From positions 1-39,250 of the forward strand of contig MNXU01000093.1 of the NCBI GenBank assembly GCA_001872285.1: DNA of 39,250 bases. Direction: 5' to 3'. The notes beneath the pieces were generated by a model. That model was not told the DNA's origin, ran no database searches, and worked only from the letters and a program-made list of their open reading frames with translations. Each line of letters begins with the position of its first letter. The first letter of the stretch is position 1. The position numbers and the translations under genes are program-made. This DNA is from Betaproteobacteria bacterium CG2_30_68_42 (GTDB lineage: Bacteria; Pseudomonadota; Gammaproteobacteria; Burkholderiales; Rhodocyclaceae). Positions 26,859-39,250 of this stretch are shown piece by piece.

Positions 26859-26880
26859 CGGGTGCAAGCGCGCGCCGCGA

Positions 26881-26909
26881 TTGCCTGCCGCGGCGAAAGG
26901 AAGTATAAA
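26881..26909 (+). promoter_or_regulatory. Sigma-70-type promoter upstream of the small membrane ORF and ppc
   Basis: -35 TTGCCT (26881-26886), a 17-base spacer and -10 TATAAA (26904-26909, 5 of 6 matches). The transcript would begin near 26916 and carry a 5' hairpin: CCGATGCC (26912-26919) pairs with GGCATCGG (26933-26940). Confidence 0.65.
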
Positions 26910-27033
26910 CGCCGATGCCTCACCGCACCACGGGCATCGGGAAGCGCCAGGCTCGATCTCCGAGCCGTGCGGCGTCACCGGGCGGGTGGGTCGCGCGTAC
27001 CCCGATCATCGCAGCAAACCGGAGCAGCGTTCG

Positions 27034-27171
27034 ATGTGGTTCATCGTGTACTACGTTGTCGCGATCGCGATCCTGATCCTGCATTTCACCGGGTTCCTCG
27101 CCCGGCACAACATCGAATGGCTGATCTTCGTACTGGCGCTGACCGTGTTCCCGGCAGTGATCTATCTGTAG
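27034..27171 (+). CDS. Small 45-residue membrane protein (hypothetical)
   Basis: The ORF starts MWFIVYYVVAIAILILHF and continues with a short turn (TGFLARHNIEW) into a second hydrophobic stretch ending PAVIYL. Two membrane helices with a positively charged loop are predicted. The ATG has GGAG eight bases upstream. It sits directly after the promoter at 26881-26909 and overlaps the presumed ppc start by 55 bases in another frame. No family is recognised. It may be a true small protein or a leader ORF coupled to ppc translation. Confidence 0.5.
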   Translation: MWFIVYYVVAIAILILHFTGFLARHNIEWLIFVLALTVFPAVIYL

Positions 27172-29936
27172 CCACGAACGACACACCGGGCGCCGCGGAC
27201 AAGGACTCGCCGCTGCGCGAGGACATCCGGCTGCTCGGCCGGATTCTCGGCGACACGCTGCGGCTGCGCGAAGGCGAAGCGGTGTTCGAGGCGGTGGAAG
27301 GCATCCGCCGCACCTCGGTGCGTTTCGAGCGCGATCAGGACGGCGAGGCGGGCGCGCGGCTCGCCGCGCTGCTCAACGCGCTGCCACGCGAATCGGTGAA
27401 CGCCGTGGTGCGCGCGTTCAGCTTCTTCCTCCAGCTCGCCAATCTCGCCGAGGACCAGCATCACATCCGCCGCCGCCGCGCGCATGCGATCGCAGGATCG
27501 CCCCCGCGCGAAGGCAGCCTCTCGCATGCCCTGGCCCGGATGGCCGCGGCCGGCGTATCCGTGCCGGTGCTGCACGATCTCCTCCATCGCGCGCTCGTCT
27601 CACCGGTGCTCACCGCCCACCCGACCGAGGTCCAGCGCCACAGCATCCTGCTGTGCCAGAAGCGCATCGGCGCTTGCCTGGATGCGCGCGACCGGATCGC
27701 GATGACGCCCTCGGATAGAAGCGCGAACGAGCGCGAACTGCGCCGCGCCGTGCTCGCACTGTGGGGCACCCGCATCCTGCGCCCGACCCGGCTTGCGGTG
27801 GTCGACGAGATCCGCAACGGGCTGCGCTATTTCGAGGAGACCTTCCTCGTCGAGCTGCCGCGCCTGTACTGCGAGTTCGAGGACCTGCTCGCGAGCCGCA
27901 TGCCGGAGGAGCACTGGAAGCTCCCGGCCTTCTTCCGCATCGGAAGCTGGATCGGAGGGGACCGCGACGGCAACCCGCACGTGGGTGCGCCGATGCTCTC
28001 CGAGGCGGTGCGCCTGCACTCCTCGGCGGCCTTCGACTTCTACCTCGACGAAATCCATGCGCTCGGCGCGGAGCTGTCCCTCTCGGAGCTGCTGGTGCGG
28101 GTGAGCCCGGAACTCGCCGAACTCGCCGCGCGCTCGCCCGACCGCTCGCCCCACCGCGCCGACGAACCCTACCGGCGTGCGCTCACCGGCATCTACGCGA
28201 GACTCGCGGCGACCGCCCGCGCGCTCGACCACCACGAGGCGGTGCGCCACGCGGTGGCCCGCGCCGAGCCCTACCGGAACGCAGCGCAGTTCCTCGCCGA
28301 AATCGAGGTGCTCGCCGACTCGCTCGGCCGCGACGACTGCGCGCTGCTCGCGGGCGGGCGGCTGCGCCGGCTCGTGCGTGCCGTGCAGGTGTTCGGTTTC
28401 CACCTCGCCGCGCTCGACCTGCGCCAGAACTCCGAGGTGCATGAGCGCACCGTCGCCGAACTGCTGGCGCGCGCCGGGCGCTACGCGGATTACGCCGCGC
28501 TTCCCGAAGCCGCGCGCATCGAGCTGCTCGCCGAGGAGCTGGCGAGCCCGCGTCTGCTGCATTCGCCCTACCTGGAATACAGCGAGGAGACGGCAGGCGA
28601 GCTGGCCGTGTTCTTCGCGGCGCGCGACATCCGCGCCCGCTACGGCGAGGAGGCGCTGCCGAACTGCATCGTCTCCAAGACCGACGGCGCCTCGGACCTG
28701 CTCGAGGCCGCGCTGCTGCTCAAGGAGGCGGGGCTTGCGGGAACGCGCCCGGCGCCGCGCCTCGGCATGAATCTCGTGCCGCTGTTCGAGACCATCTCCG
28801 ACCTGCGCCGCTGCGCGGAAACCCTCGGCATCCTGCTCGATCTGCCGGCCTGGCGCACGATGCTGGCCACCCGCGGCAACGTCCAGGAGGTGATGCTCGG
28901 CTATTCCGACAGCAACAAGGACGGAGGCTTCCTGACTTCCGCCTGGGAGCTTCACAAGGCGGAGAGCGCACTGGCCGCGGCCTGTGCGCAGCGCGGCGTC
29001 GCGCTGCGGCTGTTCCACGGGCGCGGCGGCACGGTCGGCCGCGGTGGCGGGCCGAGCTACGAGGCGATCCTCGCCCAGCCTGCGGGTGTCGTCTCGGGGC
29101 AGATCCGCATCACCGAGCAGGGCGAGGTCATCGCCAGCAAGTACGGCAATCCGGAGATCGGGCGGCGCAATCTCGAAATCCTCGCGGCAGCGGTGATCGA
29201 GGCGAGCCTGTGCCACCCCGAGCGCGCGCTGGCCTCCCCGCAACGCCACGAGAGCGTGATGGAGCGGCTCTCCGAGCTCGCCTTCCACGCCTACCGTGCG
29301 CTCGTCCGCGAAACGCCGGACTTCGAGCGCTATTTTCGCGAATCGACGCCGATCGCCGAGATCAGCGAACTGAACATCGGCAGCCGGCCCGCCTCGCGCA
29401 AGCTCTCGACGGCGATCGCGGACCTGCGCGCGATCCCCTGGGTGTTCTCCTGGAGCCAGTGCCGGCTCATGCTGCCGGGATGGTACGGCTTCGGCTCCGC
29501 GGTGCGAACCTGGCTCGGCGAGAATCCGGACGGACTCGCCGTCCTTCAGGGCATGTTCCGCGGCTGGCCGTTCTTCCGCACCCTGCTCTCCAACATGGAC
29601 ATGGTGCTCGCCAAGACCGACCTCGCGATCGCCTCCCGCTATGCCGGGCTGGTCGCCGATGCCGGACTGCGGGCACGCGTGTTCTCGCGCATCCGCGCAG
29701 AGTGGGAACTGTCCCGCGAGATGCTGTTCGCGATCAACGGGGCGAAGGCGCATCTCGCCGACAACCCCCTGCTCGCGCGCTCGATGCGCAACCGCTTCCC
29801 CTATCTCGATCCGCTCAACCACCTGCAGATCGAGCTCTTGCGCAGGCACCGCGCCGGGGCGAGCGACGAGCGGGTGCGCCGCGGGATCCACCTCACCATC
29901 AACGGCATCGCGGCCGGGCTGCGCAACAGCGGCTGA
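27117..29936 (+). CDS. ppc: Phosphoenolpyruvate carboxylase
   Basis: 939 residues with this start. Carboxylates PEP to oxaloacetate, replenishing the TCA cycle. Catalytic and binding motifs are intact: VLTAHPTEVQRHSI (catalytic His), GSWIGGDRDGNPHV, VMLGYSDSNKDGGFL, LFHGRGGTVGRGGGPSYEAI, and the C-terminal LTINGIAAGLRNSG. Clear homology begins near DSPLREDIRLLGRILGD (about 27207). The only in-frame ATG before this is 27117, with no ribosome site and inside the small membrane ORF; no GTG or TTG lies between. The true start is therefore uncertain, and translational coupling with the small ORF is possible. Confidence 0.93.
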   Translation: MADLRTGADRVPGSDLSVATNDTPGAADKDSPLREDIRLLGRILGDTLRLREGEAVFEAVEGIRRTSVRFERDQDGEAGARLAALLNALPRESVNAVVRAFSFFLQLANLAEDQHHIRRRRAHAIAGSPPREGSLSHALARMAAAGVSVPVLHDLLHRALVSPVLTAHPTEVQRHSILLCQKRIGACLDARDRIAMTPSDRSANERELRRAVLALWGTRILRPTRLAVVDEIRNGLRYFEETFLVELPRLYCEFEDLLASRMPEEHWKLPAFFRIGSWIGGDRDGNPHVGAPMLSEAVRLHSSAAFDFYLDEIHALGAELSLSELLVRVSPELAELAARSPDRSPHRADEPYRRALTGIYARLAATARALDHHEAVRHAVARAEPYRNAAQFLAEIEVLADSLGRDDCALLAGGRLRRLVRAVQVFGFHLAALDLRQNSEVHERTVAELLARAGRYADYAALPEAARIELLAEELASPRLLHSPYLEYSEETAGELAVFFAARDIRARYGEEALPNCIVSKTDGASDLLEAALLLKEAGLAGTRPAPRLGMNLVPLFETISDLRRCAETLGILLDLPAWRTMLATRGNVQEVMLGYSDSNKDGGFLTSAWELHKAESALAAACAQRGVALRLFHGRGGTVGRGGGPSYEAILAQPAGVVSGQIRITEQGEVIASKYGNPEIGRRNLEILAAAVIEASLCHPERALASPQRHESVMERLSELAFHAYRALVRETPDFERYFRESTPIAEISELNIGSRPASRKLSTAIADLRAIPWVFSWSQCRLMLPGWYGFGSAVRTWLGENPDGLAVLQGMFRGWPFFRTLLSNMDMVLAKTDLAIASRYAGLVADAGLRARVFSRIRAEWELSREMLFAINGAKAHLADNPLLARSMRNRFPYLDPLNHLQIELLRRHRAGASDERVRRGIHLTINGIAAGLRNSG

Positions 29937-31055: not shown

Positions 31056-31301
31056 TCAATCCTCGCCTGGCTCGTTCACGTATTTTTGCAGACGCCGCGC
31101 GAACACATGGCGGTCGAAGCGCCATTCTTCGAGCAGGTTGATCGCCAGCTCGAATGGCTTCTTGTCCAGGTTATAGAGGTATCCCAGGTCGAAGGTAGCG
31201 GATGACTCCAGCGCCATGCAGAGATCTTTGAGGTCGGAACAGGCTTTGTCATCCGGATTCTTGCGGATGAATTTGGCGATGTTTTTGACTGCGTTGGCCA
31301 T
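31056..31301 (-). CDS. 81-residue helical protein cotranscribed with pyruvate kinase (hypothetical)
   Basis: Starts MANAVKNIAKFIRKNPDDKA and ends EWRFDRHVFARRLQKYVNEPGED. Predicted mostly helical and soluble, with a balance of charged residues; no signal or membrane segment. The ribosome site AAGGAAG overlaps the pyruvate kinase stop codon, and only 13 bases separate the genes, so both are expected on the Pho-box transcript. No family recognised. A regulatory or stabilising partner of the kinase is a guess from position. Confidence 0.7.
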   Translation of the reverse strand: MANAVKNIAKFIRKNPDDKACSDLKDLCMALESSATFDLGYLYNLDKKPFELAINLLEEWRFDRHVFARRLQKYVNEPGED

Positions 31302-31314
31302 GATGTTTGCTTCC

Positions 31315-33147
31315 TTACCAATGTAATGCCCGCAAGCGAGCGGATTTCTTGTGCTGATGCGCGCGCATGCGGCGGGCGATGTCATCCAGCATGGCGATCG
31401 CGTGCAGCACGAACGGGCCCTTGTTCAACATCACGCACTCGGCGCGCTCCGACATGGCGGCGTCGGTCATTTCCGCGCGCGAGGGCAGGTTTTCCTTGAT
31501 CAGTTGCTCGAACACCTGGGTGGCCCAGACGACCGGCACATGCGCCGCTTCCGCCAGCCACAATATTTCTTCCTGAATCTCGGCGAGCCGGCTCCAGCCG
31601 ATTTCCACCGCCAGGTCGCCGCGCGCGATCATCAAGCCAAATGGGCCACGGCTTGCGCCATGAACCACGATCTCGGGCAGATTAACCACCGCGCGCCGGG
31701 TTTCGATCTTGGCGATGCGGCCCAGATTGCCGGCGCCGCGCGCTTCCACTTCGTCCGCCAGGCGATCCATGTCCGCCGCCGACTGCACGAAAGAATAGCC
31801 CACGATATCCGCTTCGCGGGCAACGAAATCGAGATCGAGCAAATCCTTTTCGCCCAGCGCGGGAAGCGCAATGTCGCTGTCGGGAAAATTCAGGCCCTTG
31901 CCGGGGCGGATCTTGTCGCCCTCGGGGCGGGCACGGGTGATGCGCAGACAGGCGCCCGCCGCGTCGAGCCGCTCTACTTCGGCGCCGATCTGGCCGTCGT
32001 CGATGAACACCCGCTCGCCGACGCGCAGGCTGTCCAGAACTTCCGGCTGTGCGCAGGGAATGCGGCCGGCGTCGCCGTCCTCGCCGCCCGCCTCGCCGGG
32101 CGCGGGATCACGCGACAGCAGCAGGCGGTCGCCGACATGCGCCAGCAACGCCTCCGGTGTGCTTTCCAGCGTACCCACACGGGTCGCTCGCTGTTTTCCT
32201 TCACCGGCAAGATGCTTCAGGGCGCAGCCCTGTTCCAGCCAGACCGAATCGGCGGCGCAAGCGAGTACGTGCGTCTCACCCATCCGCTCCAGCACGTTGA
32301 AGATGCGCTTCTTGCCGCGGGTGTCGGCCGCCTCCACCAGGTCGCCCGGACGCAGGCGGTCGAGCCAGTCGCGCGCCACGCTCAGGCGCGGATAGCTGGC
32401 CAGGCCTACGGCACCGCGCAGCCCGGGGCCGCCGGGCTCGCCGCTGGCGTCAAACAGGAAGTAGGCTGGTGCGCGGGTGTCGCCGCGTTCGTCGCGCTTC
32501 GGTTTAAGGCGCAGGCGTCCGGGCGTTTCCGCCATCTCGCCGGTACGCAGTTTCGGGCCGGCGAGGTCCATGTGGATCAGGCACTCGCGCCCGGCGGCGC
32601 CGGCGGCGGAACGGACATTGGCGATCATCGCCATCCAGGTGTCGGCGTCGTCATGGGCGCAATTGATGCGGGCGATGTCCATGCCATGTTCGATCAGGTC
32701 GCGGACGAAGCGAATCTCGCCGGCCGCCGCCGTCGGCAGGGTGACCATGATGCGGACGCGCCGCTGTTTCGGCTCGCGTCCGAGCAAGGCCTGGGTGTTT
32801 TGTTTGAGGCGGTTATCGCCCTGGCGATTGGCCCGCCCCGTTTTCATCAACACCGCTTCGCCAACAGCGGCCCCGGCCAGCGCGTCCAACGCCAGCGCGA
32901 CGGCATCCAGGGTGGCGACCACATGGCCTTCGCAGCGGCCCAGCGAGGACAGCCCAAGCTGGCTCAGGCGCTCCTGCAAGCCGCGATGATCTTCCCGGCG
33001 GAAAGCGATGTAGGCGGCCAGATTGGCGGCGTCCTGGTCGTGGCCCGTCGCGAGGGCGCCCCAGCCCGCCAGCAAGGCCTGCTGGCCAGCGGCCACCCTG
33101 GCGCGCAGCGCGTTCAGTTCACTTTGAATTTCTGGCAGGGTTTGCAC
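31315..33147 (-). CDS. Pyruvate kinase family protein with N-terminal extension
   Basis: 610 residues. The first 130 are an Ala/Leu/Arg-rich helical extension not found in standard pyruvate kinases. The barrel domain then shows IMVTLPTAAAGEIRFVRDLI, IARINCAHDDADTW, HMDLAGPKLRTGE, KIETRRAVVNLPEIV, IARGDLAVEIGW and VVWATQVFEQLIKENLPSRA. These match the pyruvate kinase order of motifs, but the C-terminal allosteric domain is absent and several residues differ from the norm (e.g. CAHDD for the usual FSHG). GTG start at 33147. A Pho box lies directly upstream. It may convert PEP and ADP to pyruvate and ATP during phosphate starvation, or have another phosphotransfer role. Confidence 0.8.
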   Translation of the reverse strand: MQTLPEIQSELNALRARVAAGQQALLAGWGALATGHDQDAANLAAYIAFRREDHRGLQERLSQLGLSSLGRCEGHVVATLDAVALALDALAGAAVGEAVLMKTGRANRQGDNRLKQNTQALLGREPKQRRVRIMVTLPTAAAGEIRFVRDLIEHGMDIARINCAHDDADTWMAMIANVRSAAGAAGRECLIHMDLAGPKLRTGEMAETPGRLRLKPKRDERGDTRAPAYFLFDASGEPGGPGLRGAVGLASYPRLSVARDWLDRLRPGDLVEAADTRGKKRIFNVLERMGETHVLACAADSVWLEQGCALKHLAGEGKQRATRVGTLESTPEALLAHVGDRLLLSRDPAPGEAGGEDGDAGRIPCAQPEVLDSLRVGERVFIDDGQIGAEVERLDAAGACLRITRARPEGDKIRPGKGLNFPDSDIALPALGEKDLLDLDFVAREADIVGYSFVQSAADMDRLADEVEARGAGNLGRIAKIETRRAVVNLPEIVVHGASRGPFGLMIARGDLAVEIGWSRLAEIQEEILWLAEAAHVPVVWATQVFEQLIKENLPSRAEMTDAAMSERAECVMLNKGPFVLHAIAMLDDIARRMRAHQHKKSARLRALHW

Positions 33148-33175
33148 GGTTCAGGCGGACCACGTTGAAGCCGGA

Positions 33176-33220
33176 AGTGTAGCCACACCAGGTGACAGAA
33201 TGATGAAGGAAATGTGACAT
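33176..33220 (-). promoter_or_regulatory. Pho box and PhoB-type promoter of the pyruvate kinase gene
   Basis: On the minus strand three 7-base units occur with an exact 11-base period: ATGTCAC (33220-33214), CCTTCAT (33209-33203) and CTGTCAC (33198-33192), each separated by four A/T-rich bases. The PhoB consensus unit is CTGTCA(C/T). A -10-like TACACT (33181-33176) lies exactly 10 bases after the last unit, the arrangement of PhoB-activated promoters that lack a -35. The transcript would start about 20 bases before the GTG. Confidence 0.75.
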
Positions 33221-33259: not shown

Positions 33260-33295
33260 CGCAGGTTGGGCAATGCGCAGCGTGCCCAACCTGCG
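33260..33295 (-). terminator. Extragenic palindrome, probable 3' end of the pst transcript
   Basis: CGCAGGTTGGGCA (33260-33272) and TGCCCAACCTGCG (33283-33295), a perfect 13-bp stem with a 10-base loop. On the minus strand it is followed by CTTCCTTGTTAATC. It lies 53 bases past the pstB stop. The GGTTGGGCA...TGCCCAACC form also resembles a dispersed extragenic repeat. Confidence 0.6.
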
Positions 33296-33348: not shown

Positions 33349-34176
33349 TCAGCCGAAGCGGCCGGTGATGTAGTCCTCGGTCTGCTTCTGCCCGGGCTTG
33401 ATGAAAAGGGTGTCGGTCTTGCCGAACTCGATCAGTTCGCCCAGATACATGAAGGCGGTGAAATCGGAGATGCGCGCCGCCTGCTGCATGTTGTGGGTGA
33501 CGATGACAATGGTGTACTTGTCCTTCAACTCGTTGATCAGCTCCTCCAGTTTGGCGGTGGAGATCGGGTCCAGTGCCGAAGCCGGCTCATCCAGCAGCAA
33601 CACTTCCGGCTCCAGGGCGACCGCGCGGGCAATGACCAGGCGCTGCTGCTGACCGCCGGACAGGCTCAGGCCGCTTTCGCTGAGCCGGTCCTTGACTTCA
33701 TCCCACAGGGCGGCGCCGCGCAGGGACTTTTCCACCGTCTCGTCCAGCACCTTCTTGTCGTTGACGCCAATGATGCGCAGGCCGTATGCGACGTTTTCAT
33801 AGATGGTCTTGGGGAACGGATTGGGCTTCTGGAACACCATACCGACCCGGCGGCGCAAGAGCGCCACGTTCACGTCCGGGTCGTACACATTCTTGCCGTC
33901 GAGCAGGATCTTGCCCTCGACGCGGCAGGCATCCACCAGATCGTTCATCCGGTTGAAGCAGCGCAGCAGTGTCGATTTCCCGCAGCCGCTGGGGCCGATG
34001 ATGGCCGTGACCCGGTTCCTGGGTATGGTCATGTTGACCCGCTTCAGCGCGTGGCTTTCGCCATAGTACAAGTCGAGGTTTTCCACGCGCATGGCCACCT
34101 CGTCGGTGTGTTCCACGTCTTTACGCGTCAAATCGCCCATCTTCATCGCGTGGGTCGGAGTCGTCACAGCGTTCAT
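33349..34176 (-). CDS. pstB: Phosphate ABC transporter ATP-binding protein
   Basis: 275 residues. Walker [13 protein letters not shown]-loop [20 protein letters not shown] (a PstB hallmark), signature [15 protein letters not shown], Walker [17 protein letters not shown] and H-loop [14 protein letters not shown]. It powers high-affinity phosphate import. The ATG at 34176 is chosen for its upstream AAGGA; an ATG at 34191 is possible. It is the last pst gene; phoU, often next, is replaced here by the pyruvate kinase operon. Confidence 0.95.
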
Positions 34177-34216
34177 TTCGTTTTCCTTCATACCGGATGA
34201 TGTTTGCATATCGTGT

Positions 34217-35872
34217 TCACACACCTTCGAGGCCGCGCATCGTTTCGCGCAAGCGGTTGCGCAAGCGGATCGCGAACATATTGAGCACGATGATGATGAT
34301 GACCAGCAACAAGGAAGTGGCATAGACCAGCGGACGCGCCGCCTCGACGTTCGGGCTCTGGAAGCCGACGTCGTAGATGTGGAAGCCCAGGTGCATGAAC
34401 TTGCGTTCCAGGTGCAGGAACGGGAAGTTGAGGTCCAGCGGCAGGCTGGGCGCGAGCTTGACCACGCCGACCAGCATCAACGGCGCCACCTCGCCGGCGG
34501 CGCGGGCCACAGCCAGGATCAACCCGGTCATCATCGCCGGACTGGCGATGGGCAGGACGGTACGCCACAAGGTTTCCGCCTTGGTGGCGCCGAGCGCCAG
34601 GCTGCCTTCGCGGATCGAGCGCGGTACGCGCGACAGGCCTTCCTCGGTGGCCACGATGACCACCGGCAGGGTCAGCAGCGCCAGGGTCAGCGACGACCAG
34701 AGGATGCCGGGGCTGCCGAACACCGGCGCCGGGTGCGCCTCGGGGAAGAACAGCGCGTCAATGTTGCCGCCCAGGAAGTAGACGAAGAAACCCAGGCCGA
34801 ACACACCGTAGACGATCGACGGCACGCCGGCCAGATTGTTGACCGAGATGCGCAGGACGCGGATCAGCGGCCCCTGCTTGGCGTATTCACGCATGTACAC
34901 CGCCGCCATGATGCCCAGCGGCGTCACCATCGCCGCCATCAGCAGCACCATCATCACCGTGCCGAAGATGGCCGGGAAGATGCCGCCCTCGGTGTTCGCC
35001 TCGCGCGGATCGTCGACGATGAATTCGTAGAACTTCGTCAGGTAGTAGCCGACCTTCTGGATCACGCTCATGTCGTTCGGCTGGATCACGTCGGCGATCT
35101 TGGCGAACGGAATTTCAATGACCTTCCCGTCCTGGACCTCGGCGGTCAGGCTGTCGCGCTGGTTTTCCGCCCGCAACGCGTCCAGCCGGGACTTCAGCTT
35201 GGCGAACTGGGCATCGTATATCGCCCGTTCTTCATCGATCTCGGCCTGGACCGCCTCGGTCAGATCGCCCTTCAGTTCCAGCTTGCGCTGCTTCAGGCGC
35301 AGACGCTCCAACTGGTAGTTGACCTTGCCGATATCGTGTTTCTCGATGCTCAGTATTTCATCGAACAGTTCGTTGGAACGCAGCAGCCGCTTCTGCACCT
35401 CGGCCCAGGCAGCCGCCCCTTCGGCGACGACCTTGCGGTTTTCCTTGACCGACTTGAGATAGCCGAAAAAACTACCCCATTCATGACGCTCGATGGAGAT
35501 TACGTCCTTCGGGTACTTGAACTCGCTGAGCAGGGGCGCGGGAATCCACTTGAAGTCGATCCCGTAGACATCCCGGTTGCCCTGCTTGAACAGGTAACGG
35601 GAGGTGTACTTGTCTTTGCTATCGATGGTGTAACCCGACTCGCGCAGGCGGTGCAGGGAGATTTCCTCGCTGTCGCGCAGCTCGCCGACCACACGCTGGC
35701 TACTACCGTCGGGGGCGGTGATGGTCGTTTCGACCAGGGGCTTCGGCCACCAGTGGCCCAGGCCCTGGGCCGCCGTCATCCACACGACACCATAGACCGC
35801 CAGCAAGGACAAGGCAACCGCCCCGCCCGTCATCCATATCCAGGGCTCGCCGCCCTTGAACCAGTTACGCAT
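34217..35872 (-). CDS. pstA: Phosphate ABC transporter permease PstA, long form
   Basis: 551 residues, nearly twice the E. coli length. After an N-terminal membrane helix (about 12-34), a periplasmic insert of some 230 residues includes a Lys/Glu/Leu-rich coiled coil (around 140-235, e.g. [20 protein letters not shown]). The canonical permease domain follows (from about 290) with [30 protein letters not shown] and [20 protein letters not shown] (the EAA loop contacting PstB). Long PstA of this kind is known in Pseudomonas and relatives. GAGGA precedes the ATG; pstC ends 11 bases upstream. Confidence 0.94.
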
Positions 35873-35883
35873 GGCTTGAGTCC

Positions 35884-38163
35884 TCAGATGGAGCTGTATT
35901 TTTCGCGCAAGCGCTGACGCACCAGCTCGGCCAGGGTGTTGATGAAGAAGGTGAAGACGAACAACACCAGGGCGGAGAAGAAGAGCAGCAGGTAATGGGT
36001 CGAGCCCAACGCCGCTTCCGGCATTTCGACGCCAATGTTGGCCGACAGCGTGCGGAAGCCGGTGAAGATGGACAGATTCATCACCGCGGTGTTGCCGGTG
36101 GCCATCAGTACGATCATGGTTTCGCCGACGGCGCGGCCCATGCCCACCATGATGGCGGAGAAGATGCCCGGGCTGGCGGTGAGCAGAACGACGTTGAACA
36201 GGGTCTGCCAGGGCGTCGCGCCCAGGGCCAGGGAGCCGCTGGTCAGGTGCTTGGGCACGCTGAACACCGCATCTTCGGCAATGGAGAAGATGGTCGGGAT
36301 CACCGCGAAGCCCATGGCGATGCCCACCACCAGCGAGTTGCGCTGTTCGTAGGTCCAGCCCAGTTCGTTGCTCATCCAGCGGGGCATGTCGCCGCCGAAC
36401 AAGGCCGCCTCGACGGGGTGACCCAGGGCAACCGCCAGCCACACCACCAGGACGATCACGGGCAACAGCAGGGCGGCCTCCCAGCCCGGTCCGATCCGAT
36501 CGGTGAACTGCCGCGGCAGCAGATGCCAGAGATAGGCGGCAATGAGAAAACTGAACGGCAAGAAGAACAGCGCCATCAACGTGCCGGCCAAATTGCCGTC
36601 GACGAAGGGCGCCAGCCACAGACCCGCCAGGAAACCCAGGATGACGGTGGGCAAGGCCTCCATGATCTCGATCGACGGCTTGACCACGCCGCGCATCTTG
36701 GGCGACATGAAGTAGGCGGCGAAGATCGCGCCCATCACCGCCAGGGGCACCGCCAACAGCATGGCGTAGAACGCCGCCTTCAAGGTGCCGAAGGTCAGTG
36801 GTGAGAGGCTGAATTTCGGCTCGAAATCGGAGCTGGCGGCGGCCGACTGCCAGAGGTAATCCGGCTTCTCGTAGCTCTCGTACCAGACCTTGCCCCACAA
36901 TGAGCCGAACGAGATTTCGGGGTACTCGTTCTCGATGTGGGCCACCCGGATGTCGCCCTTGGCCGTTTCCAGGACGACGGCATTGGCGCGCGGCGCGAAT
37001 GCCGCCAGGCGCACCGGCGCCGCGCCGGTGGCACGCTCGAGCAGCAGGCGTTCGGAGGTGGCGTAATAGAGATTCACCGCCCCTTTCTCGTCGGCCGACA
37101 CGAAGCCCTTGCGGGCATGCTCCGGGGCGACCGAGGTGATCGCCCCGGCCATGGGCTTGAATTCACGGATGCGGGTAAAGGTGTTGTGATTGTTTGCGTC
37201 GCGTACCTGGAACCATTGGCTCAGCCTGCCCTTGTCGGAACCGACGATGATGGAGAAACCACCCGAGAGCAGGGCCGCGGCGGTGACGCGCTCGCCTTCC
37301 GGCACGACCGCCACGGTCTGCTTCAGAACCGGATTGTCCTTGTCCTGGACATTGAAGTGGCTGATGAAGCGGCCGCCGTGGAGCACATACAGATCGCGTT
37401 GCTTGACTTCCAGCAGGAGCTGGTCGACCCCACCATCCAGCTTGCGCAACTCGTGCAGCGCCGCGCGTGTAGTCGTCGTCGATTCGCCGGTGAAATCGTT
37501 CTCGCTGGTGTAGTAGGCCAACAGCAGGCGACCGTCCTCGGTCAATGCCACGGCGGTGGTGCCGTCGCCGTCGTGCTGTATGGCCAGCTTCTTCAATGGC
37601 TGCCCCGCGTCGTCCAGCACCAGGGCGTCCTTTCCCAGCGGGTAAACCAGACCTGGGGCGATGGCGCGGATATCCTTCTTCGGATCCTTGGGGTCCTGGG
37701 TAAAGGACACCTTGTAGTCGTCTTTGAACAGCATCAGGCGTCCGTCGGCGAGGCCATAGGCCATGGTCCGCTTGCGCGGATCACCGGCCGCGAAAGTACT
37801 GGCCGGAACCGATTCCGGCAGGCCGACCCGTTCCTGTAGCAGCGGCCTGCCATCGGCAAGGCTGAAGAAAGTGACATCACCCTGATCGGCAACCCGAGCG
37901 CCAATCTCGACCTGTTCTTCCATGGCGAGATGTACTGACTTCTGGCCATTGACAGCCGGAACCGGCAACGGCTTGAGGTCATCCATATGGGCTGGCATGA
38001 ACAATGGCATGACAACGCCAGCCAGATAGAAAAAGATGGTGCTGATCGCGATGATCACGCTCAAGCCGCCGAAGGTCATGACGTATTTGAACAGTTTGTC
38101 CTTCGCCATTCTGCGGCCGGTGTGGCCGCCCGCGCTGGTAATGCTGGCCTCAATCTTTTCCAT
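35884..38163 (-). CDS. pstC: Phosphate ABC transporter permease PstC, long form
   Basis: 759 residues. One N-terminal membrane helix (about 28-55) leads into a periplasmic domain of about 400 residues with beta-propeller-like repeats (e.g. GLADGRLMLFKDDYK, LTEDGRLLLAYYTSE, VGSDKGRLSQWFQVR, SADEKGAVNLYYATS). The permease domain (from about 465) has VPLAVMGAIFAAYFMSP, MEALPTVILGFLAGLWLAP and [20 protein letters not shown]. The propeller may sense or gate substrate delivery from PstS; its function is unproven. Start ATG at 38163; the ribosome site is weak. Confidence 0.93.
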   Translation of the reverse strand: MEKIEASITSAGGHTGRRMAKDKLFKYVMTFGGLSVIIAISTIFFYLAGVVMPLFMPAHMDDLKPLPVPAVNGQKSVHLAMEEQVEIGARVADQGDVTFFSLADGRPLLQERVGLPESVPASTFAAGDPRKRTMAYGLADGRLMLFKDDYKVSFTQDPKDPKKDIRAIAPGLVYPLGKDALVLDDAGQPLKKLAIQHDGDGTTAVALTEDGRLLLAYYTSENDFTGESTTTTRAALHELRKLDGGVDQLLLEVKQRDLYVLHGGRFISHFNVQDKDNPVLKQTVAVVPEGERVTAAALLSGGFSIIVGSDKGRLSQWFQVRDANNHNTFTRIREFKPMAGAITSVAPEHARKGFVSADEKGAVNLYYATSERLLLERATGAAPVRLAAFAPRANAVVLETAKGDIRVAHIENEYPEISFGSLWGKVWYESYEKPDYLWQSAAASSDFEPKFSLSPLTFGTLKAAFYAMLLAVPLAVMGAIFAAYFMSPKMRGVVKPSIEIMEALPTVILGFLAGLWLAPFVDGNLAGTLMALFFLPFSFLIAAYLWHLLPRQFTDRIGPGWEAALLLPVIVLVVWLAVALGHPVEAALFGGDMPRWMSNELGWTYEQRNSLVVGIAMGFAVIPTIFSIAEDAVFSVPKHLTSGSLALGATPWQTLFNVVLLTASPGIFSAIMVGMGRAVGETMIVLMATGNTAVMNLSIFTGFRTLSANIGVEMPEAALGSTHYLLLFFSALVLFVFTFFINTLAELVRQRLREKYSSI

Positions 38164-38286: not shown

Positions 38287-38874
38287 TTATTTTACTTGAT
38301 GCAACCGATTGAACTGCTCGATCAGGGCCACCGGACGACCGTGCTTCTTGGTCTCCTTGTTCAGGGCATAGATCACCGTCTCGCCCTTGGGACCGGTGCC
38401 GATCTCGGTGTAGGTGAAGGTGATTTCCTTGTGGGCGAGGTAATCCTGGAAATCCTTCCACTCGCCGAAGACGTGGTAGCGGCCATTGCGCACCACCTCG
38501 CCGTAGAAGGCGCCGACATCCTTGGTCCGGCCGTCGAAGATGTCCTCGGCGGCGGTGGGCTTGCCCAGGTGCTTGCCGTCGGCCTTGGTGATGCCGAAGA
38601 TCACGGTCTCGCCATCGGGACCGCCGCCAATGCGGGTACGGGTCAGCGGCACTTCGCCATGCGCCATCAAACCCAAATATATCTTGGGCTCGGTCATGGC
38701 GTAGATGCGGCCGTTGTCGTGATAGACCATGAAATAGGTCTGCTTCTGGACCGGGGCCTCGGCCTTGGCCGCCGGGGCGGCCGTGGTCTGGCTGGTGGTG
38801 CAACCGCTCATGCCGCCGAGGGCGAGCAGGGCGGACAGCGCGGCCACCAGTTTGATCTGCTGGGTGTTTCGCAT
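38287..38874 (-). CDS. Lipoprotein with duplicated domain in the pst cluster (hypothetical)
   Basis: 195 residues. Signal peptide II with lipobox GGMSGC (Cys25), then an Ala-rich linker (26-44). Two copies of one domain follow: residues about 45-114 and 122-189. Both share the core RxGxGPxGETVI (TRIGGGPDGETVIFGITK and TEIGTGPKGETVIYALNK), a preceding G-R-Y/I-x-x-F/M turn, and a following HxG(K/R)P helix. No known family is recognised. The position between pstS and pstC suggests a periplasmic role in phosphate uptake or sensing. The ATG at 38874 has GGAG upstream. Confidence 0.75.
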   Translation of the reverse strand: MRNTQQIKLVAALSALLALGGMSGCTTSQTTAAPAAKAEAPVQKQTYFMVYHDNGRIYAMTEPKIYLGLMAHGEVPLTRTRIGGGPDGETVIFGITKADGKHLGKPTAAEDIFDGRTKDVGAFYGEVVRNGRYHVFGEWKDFQDYLAHKEITFTYTEIGTGPKGETVIYALNKETKKHGRPVALIEQFNRLHQVK

Positions 38875-38942
38875 GATTTCACTCCATCTGGATTGTTCCC
38901 GCACGCCCGGTCAAGGGCGCGCGGCGGATTAGCAAGCGAGGA

Positions 38943-39250
38943 TCAGTTGACACCCAGGTCGCGCCGTGCCTTCGAAACCATGGCGGCGGGCATCGGCACG
39001 AAGCCGTCCTTGACCACCACTTCCTGGCCTTGCCTGGACAACACCATCTTGAAGAACTCGCGCTCCAGCGGCGACAACGCCTGGTTCGGGCGCTTGTTCA
39101 CATAGACGTAGAGCACGCGGGCCAGGGGGTACTTCTTGCTGAGGGCGTTTTCGGGCGTGGCCGCGTAGAACGGTTCGCCGCTCTTCTTGGCCAGGGGCAC
39201 GGCGCGCACGCCGGAGGTCAGGTAACCGATGCCGGAATAGCCAATGGCGC
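38943..39250 (-). CDS. pstS: Phosphate ABC transporter substrate-binding protein PstS, partial (5' end outside window)
   Basis: The last about 102 residues. It enters the window as AIGYSGIGYLTSGVRAVPLA and continues ARVLYVYVNKRPNQALSPL, EFFKMVLSRQGQEVV and a closing VPMPAAMV. These are the typical C-terminal features of PstS-like phosphate binders, with IGYSGIGY as the phosphate-site loop. The frame is open to the window end. The lipoprotein gene begins 68 bases after its stop. The promoter, where a Pho box would be expected, lies outside. Confidence 0.9.
   Translation of the reverse strand, partial: AIGYSGIGYLTSGVRAVPLAKKSGEPFYAATPENALSKKYPLARVLYVYVNKRPNQALSPLEREFFKMVLSRQGQEVVVKDGFVPMPAAMVSKARRDLGVN

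Follow-up and report, generated by a model that had tools for sequence, protein, structure and literature searches.

The window, by which we mean the whole stretch of 39,250 nucleotides that was analysed, carries on its minus strand, in this order, the end of pstS, a gene of 205 codons, pstC, pstA, pstB and, after a gap of 201 bases, the gene for a second pyruvate kinase (PK) and a small gene. Between pstB and the PK gene lie a hairpin and a putative Pho box with its -10 hexamer. The features are:

38943..39250, minus strand: pstS, C-terminal part only, truncated at the end of the contig (TIGR02136, partial matches)
38287-38904, minus strand: lipoprotein-like gene, 205 aa, between pstS and pstC
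35884..38163, minus strand: pstC, long form (TIGR02138, 187.1 bits, below the cut-off of 196.45)
34217..35872, minus strand: pstA, long form (TIGR00974, 245.3 bits, over the cut-off; start by inspection)
33349..34200, minus strand: pstB (TIGR00972, 413.6 bits, over the cut-off)
33261..33294, minus strand: hairpin of 12 pairs between pstB and the Pho box, without a good T-run
33214..33220, minus strand: putative Pho box unit 1, ATGTCAC (from the letters and the matrix score)
33203..33209, minus strand: putative unit 2, CCTTCAT, the weakest unit (C at position 2)
33192..33198, minus strand: putative unit 3, CTGTCAC, in the -35 place
33176..33181, minus strand: predicted -10 hexamer TACACT, 10 bases past unit 3
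31315..33147, minus strand: second PK, 610 aa, GTG start (PF00224, NF011314)
31056..31301, minus strand: small gene, 81 aa, 13 bases 3' of the PK gene

At E 0.001 the 205-aa gene matched nothing in Pfam or NCBIfam, with sub-threshold Pfam hits only, and no phoU was seen in the interval between pstB and the PK gene. The hairpin is possibly the end of the pst transcript; the surrounding 81 nt fold at -35.3 kcal/mol (z -2.1), and a terminator scan did not call it. On the plus strand, an open reading frame that by eye resembles PEP carboxylase (26862-29936) is convergent with the PK operon, placing two PEP-using enzymes next to each other.

The second pyruvate kinase and the small gene

In a profile search the PK scored 685.4 bits against NF011314/PRK14725, for which the curated cut-off is 642, and the Pfam barrel domain PF00224 was matched. 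None of the Pfam or NCBIfam profiles matched a C-terminal PK domain. Residues R160, N162, D194, K480, E482, R509-G-D511 and T543 are invariant in 13 aligned PK sequences; among them we take R160, N162, D194, K480, E482, D511 and T543 to be the catalytic residues. Judged by the curated score and these invariant positions, the protein belongs to the NF011314 type of pyruvate kinases, so that the preliminary description, which had called it a pyruvate kinase from the letters, was right at the level of the family. One other PK is present in the genome, on contig C45, where its upstream neighbour looks by eye like phosphoglycerate kinase.

NF011314 was matched over the cut-off in 20/297 genomes of the family, 45/399 of the order and 27/369 of the class (the genome of the window is counted all three times, and a few genomes were drawn twice). 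A shorter form of about 500 aa, in which the match splits in two pieces with the middle stretch missing, was seen at loci L021-L026 (genus g8), L043, L044, L048 and L050-L056. Short copies on plasmids lie near lactate, oxidase or metal-transport genes.

Corynebacterium glutamicum was one of two control genomes that matched NF011314 at E<=1e-60; one of these two genomes, not necessarily C. glutamicum, was over the cut-off. Pyk2 of C. glutamicum very likely belongs to the family of the window PK. Like the window PK, Pyk2 is large, lacks a C-terminal effector domain and is extended at its N-terminus by about 120 residues. We had considered that the window PK might be independent of K+, as its K199 presumably aligns to the place of rabbit E117. 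This idea was dropped, the Corynebacterium homologue (L047) having the same lysine, and it is also contradicted by what is reported for Pyk2. In the available text of that report Pyk2 is a working pyruvate kinase that is activated by FBP, dependent on K+ and unaffected by AMP and G6P, and pyk2 shares a transcript with ldhA and is induced when cells are deprived of oxygen (PMC5112673). Unlike what is proposed here for the window PK, no control by phosphate is reported there, as far as that text goes.

The small protein is predicted to be all-helical, with a mean pLDDT of 70 in a single-sequence fold. No NCBIfam or Pfam family was matched, and a comparison of the predicted fold with the PDB gave nothing better than E 2.5. 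A small gene lies 3' of the PK gene in both of the closest relatives, with 61% identity at L242 and 98% at L240, where the gene is cut by the contig end and the identity covers 60 residues. Within the family, 17 other genomes encode distant relatives (18/297 with its own; loci L132-L148), and these 17 do not overlap with the 20 family genomes that have NF011314 over the cut-off. Further relatives lie on two plasmids carried by a single Comamonadaceae strain. Together with the small protein they form an unnamed family with a motif around ALE...FDL...L...F..A....EWR.

The putative Pho box in the window and its genome

In classic PhoB promoters the box replaces the -35 element and the -10 lies about 10 bases downstream. 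The box itself is made of 11-base direct repeats, each with 7 conserved positions and 4 that are less so, according to the available part of a review (PMC4415409). The site in the window resembles the PhoB promoters of Escherichia coli pstS and phoA in its 11-base repeats, its box at -35 and its -10 at 10 bases, and differs from classic E. coli PhoB promoters in that its gene is a glycolytic enzyme. At 33220-33192 there are three 7-base units with a period of exactly 11. All three units that the preliminary description had read on the minus strand are at their places, and the TACACT that it put 10 bases past the last unit is exact (33181-33176). The transcript is predicted to start near 33169.

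A scan with a PhoB matrix had been proposed as a check. With a hand-written half-site matrix that was not trained on this lineage, the three-unit site scored 31.4 and the second best in the window (both strands) 9.4. Third-order Markov simulation of 4 Mb produced no site reaching 31.4. A pattern derived from the site and allowed up to 3 mismatches was found at this single place in the 3.1 Mb genome, with 0 for the reversed control, a search that is partly circular since the pattern was modelled on the site itself.

The genome encodes PhoB at C18:86444-87121 (TIGR02154, 330.7 bits; cut-off 296.2), together with six other PhoB-like regulators that score 131-201 bits to the PhoB model. In 50.5 kb of loci from this genome, searched on both strands, a score of about 10 or more together with TANNNT at gap 10 occurred at two sites only. 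One is the putative PK promoter at 33220-33176. The other lies before phoU on contig C45 and reads CCGCAAT-GAAA-CCGTCAT, 10 bases, TACGAT (a moderate score of 9.99). The examined flanks of a second pstS (C46) and of phoB (C18) had no box above 7.6, the upstream region of the window pstS being beyond the contig, and the examined flank of the ordinary PK of C45 had no site above 5.0. A two-unit pattern gave 14 matches in this genome against 3 for its reversed control, and by eye none had TANNNT at gap 10; this pattern was set aside as evidence (for L116 a site other than that of the pattern was inspected). The second pstS is followed by a permease gene (L244), and phoU lies in a pair rpiA-phoU (L247) on the same contig as the ordinary PK.

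Orthologous upstream regions and gene neighbourhoods

Is the arrangement conserved? We scanned a stretch of 320 bases that spans the PK start and the sequence before it at 60 loci (L184-L243) from the family and order draws, of which G310 and G569 supply two each. A sense two-unit Pho box with a shuffle p<0.05 was present in 31/60 (about 3 expected) and a three-unit box in 24/60. An antisense box was found in 11/60, likewise above chance (about 3 expected). An earlier, partly overlapping set of 47 loci had given 12 two-unit, 11 three-unit and 4 antisense boxes. Loci L001-L026 come for the most part from the same genomes as L184-L203 and were kept apart from them, and two rows were left out, L035 (contig shared with L226) and L274 (genome shared with L243).

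The spacing was addressed at 81 loci, these 60 and 21 named ones, by picking the best box blind to the downstream sequence and then examining gaps of 0 to 25 bases from its last unit. TANNNT stood at gap 10 in 27/81 loci and in at most 3 at every other gap; NANNNT stood there in 44/81, with at most 7 at any other gap. A score of at least 10 with TANNNT at gap 10 was found before 21/81 PK genes compared with 11/460 other open reading frames of the same loci (Fisher p=1.5e-11 with relatedness ignored, a value that is too small since related sequences are not independent). Nine of the 11 other hits were located (L052 and L054 left out). Of the eight that were scanned with Pfam, two were PhoU and one matched nothing; the remaining five were RpiA, PhoH, PhaC, a glycosyltransferase and a phytase-like protein. 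The ninth, at L238, lies by eye before an rpiA frame. The presence of PhoU, RpiA and PhoH indicates that the rule of score plus spacing tends toward Pho genes. The PstS-like gene of L243 has a box scoring 22.9 but CAAAAT at gap 10. The scan also picked out boxes of four units at L036 (1475) and L243 (near 2364), before a glycosyltransferase and a phytase-like gene, which are possibly members of the Pho regulon.

Conservation of the units before orthologues was the point at which the preliminary description had opened its reading to refutation. The reading withstood this test: both the 11-base units and the -10 spacing recur in several families, although they are not universal. A score of at least 10 with NANNNT at gap 10 occurred in 4/20 loci of the window's own GTDB family, in 20/40 of the rest of the order, and in 3/21 of the named loci of many phyla. 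In a class-wide draw of 28 new loci, 15 reached a score of at least 10, and 5 combined such a score with TANNNT at gap 10. NANNNT was at this gap in 10/28 and in at most 3 at other gaps. Eight of nine named plasmid loci were scanned (L280-L286, L288). The Marinobacter plasmid (L280) had NANNNT at gap 10 of its second-best site, with a score of 11.2, the Skermanella plasmid (L284) had a TA hexamer without the final T (score 10.6), and the other 6 had neither hexamer type at gap 10. Most of the scanned plasmid loci are thus without the promoter.

In the closest relative, L240 (PK 86% identical), pstB is followed by CTGTCAC-CCTTCAT-CTGTCAC, 10 bases and TATGCT, and then by PK and the small gene. 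Its PstB shares only 67% identity with that of the window, compared with the 86% of the PK. The next closest, L242 (PK 62%), keeps the window's gene order of pst, PK and small gene, and has no box in the 700 bases before PK, with the interval from pstB to PK included. At L243 (PK 44%) pstS-pstC-pstA-pstB is divergent from PK, and the putative PK promoter there has four units followed after 10 bases by TAGAAT. For a tree, rows were labelled by a permissive rule (score of at least 8, hexamer with A at position 2 and T at position 1 or 6). Under this rule a box is present in 17 and absent from 7 of the 24 rows that form a supported set with the window, and all 110 rows divide into 50 with and 60 without, with 26 changes on the tree compared with 36.5 in shuffles. 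The promoter is therefore recurrent and clustered, yet it has often been gained or lost. L224, L231 and L241 lie beside Pho or polyphosphate genes, yet have no box.

The neighbourhood of the PK gene was compared in loci of about 11 kb. Among 81 loci, PhoU was encoded in 8, CYTH-CHAD in 8, Ppx in 7, SixA in 7, PPK2 in 4 and PstB in 3. Any of PhoU, CYTH-CHAD, Ppx, SixA, PPK2 or Pst was near PK in 18/81 and in 0/57 comparison loci (L057-L113, lower-scoring hits and mostly ordinary PKs, L057 perhaps being another type), a contrast that is overstated since the species mix of the 57 differs. On a plasmid of Hymenobacter canadensis (L282 3427-3632) PK is divergent to pstSCAB, and on a plasmid of Candidatus Thiodictyon syntrophicum it lies directly before pstS; neither plasmid locus has a box with the right -10. 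The PK and pst pairs of the Hymenobacter plasmid and of L243 are separate cases of the link between this PK and phosphate. The PK copies of Marinobacter and Nostoc lie beside PHB or lactate and glycolytic genes.

A proposed place for a glycolytic enzyme in the phosphate response

The comparison of genomes thus establishes, at the level of sequence, that the site exists, that it has the geometry of a promoter, that it is conserved before many orthologues, and that this PK is linked with pst, phoU, ppx and polyphosphate genes. That 33220-33176 is a PhoB-activated promoter of the second PK, as the preliminary description had proposed, is the reading that we favour, with a probability of about 0.85. 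It draws support from the recurrence before orthologues, the presence of PhoB in the genome, the site before phoU, and the position of PK beside pst. Counting against it are the boxless L242, the low share of such loci in the window's own family, the 60 tree rows and the three loci beside Pho or polyphosphate genes that have no box, the raised antisense rate, the untrained matrix, and the flanks of the second pstS and of phoB, which gave no box above 7.6. Under this reading, when phosphate is short, phosphorylated PhoB would bind the three 11-base direct repeats in the -35 place and recruit σ70 RNA polymerase to TACACT. The promoter would then transcribe the second PK and presumably the small helical protein gene that follows it.

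A chance match is scarcely credible. Short degenerate motifs are common, but the 4 Mb of simulated sequence held nothing of equal score and the position and spacing recur in orthologues, a comparison by which this explanation is already contradicted. It is quite unlikely that a regulator of the OmpR/PhoB family other than PhoB drives the promoter through a similar direct-repeat site. The genome has many PhoB-like regulators, among them the six noted above, and no box was found beside its second pstS or phoB. However, the same architecture stands before phoU, rpiA and phoH in related loci and before phoU in this genome, and PK lies beside pst in the window, L240, L242 and L243. Very unlikely, in our judgement, is an inert or relic box, with PK expressed by read-through from pst. 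The PK and small genes do follow pstB on the same strand across a hairpin without a good T-run, and many intragenic PhoB sites of E. coli leave transcription unchanged, according to the available part of one study (PMC10294691). Against this, the -10 stands at the PhoB spacing, and the arrangement recurs before orthologues without an adjoining pst gene; read-through from pst would, moreover, itself be controlled by phosphate.

What would a phosphate-controlled PK be for? With PhoB activation of the second PK as the preferred reading, the most likely answer is an isozyme switch that keeps lower glycolysis running in phosphate shortage, which we put forward tentatively and at somewhat less than even odds. 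The PK step makes ATP without free phosphate, and the added isozyme is without the usual C-terminal effector domain. Phosphoenolpyruvate could then still phosphorylate ADP as sugar-phosphate activators and phosphate-dependent ATP formation fall. The activation of Pyk2 by FBP means that a missing effector domain is not missing control, and this activation and the induction of Pyk2 by oxygen deprivation count against an effector-free enzyme and against phosphate as the sole cue of the family. The same promoter might instead serve polyphosphate or energy storage, or fermentation under energy stress, rather than glycolytic ATP as such, a role that we take as a real possibility though we would bet against it. 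It is favoured by the 18/81 loci with Ppx, PhoU, CYTH-CHAD, SixA, PPK2 or PstB, by the PHB or lactate genes near PK in Marinobacter and Nostoc, and again by oxygen deprivation as the inducing condition in C. glutamicum. On the other side, no polyphosphate gene was seen beside PK in the window, and the neighbours of PK vary between lineages.

Pho regulons are usually described as consisting of transporters, phosphatases and lipid changes. The available text of the review contains neither 'pyruvate' nor 'glycoly' (PMC4415409). Our results support the view that the second PK would be a new member of the Pho regulon and an unexpected gene there, the promoter type itself being ordinary, and they suggest that the way in which bacteria respond to phosphate shortage may include an enzyme of glycolysis that has been overlooked. 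More broadly, and with confidence a little below one half, PhoB may switch on a dedicated second PK across much of the class of Beta- and Gammaproteobacteria, as an unlisted branch of the Pho regulon that would supply ATP without free phosphate, with a small helical partner in the lineage of the window. A recurrent PhoB promoter on a PK isozyme would, if true, connect central carbon metabolism directly with the phosphate signal and explain why many bacteria retain a second, divergent PK.

The closest parallels are partial. Plants under phosphate stress go round pyruvate kinase. Their glycolytic bypasses, which are treated in PMC5516115, are like the proposed system in that phosphate starvation remodels glycolysis, and unlike it in that the window system would add a PK. 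A search on PK with Pho or phosphate starvation, covering mostly abstracts and few subscription journals, found no PhoB-controlled PK of the NF011314 family. Genes of this kind may be among those for which Yuan et al. (2006) reportedly predicted a PhoB promoter in proteobacteria. In Streptomyces, the transcript of the PK gene SCO2014 is higher in the wild type than in a phoP mutant, a positive effect of a phosphate regulator (PhoP) on a PK like that proposed here; its authors found a half box only and no canonical Pho box, and SCO2014, which is named there as the pyruvate kinase of Streptomyces, is apparently not of the second, NF011314 type (PMC7244524).
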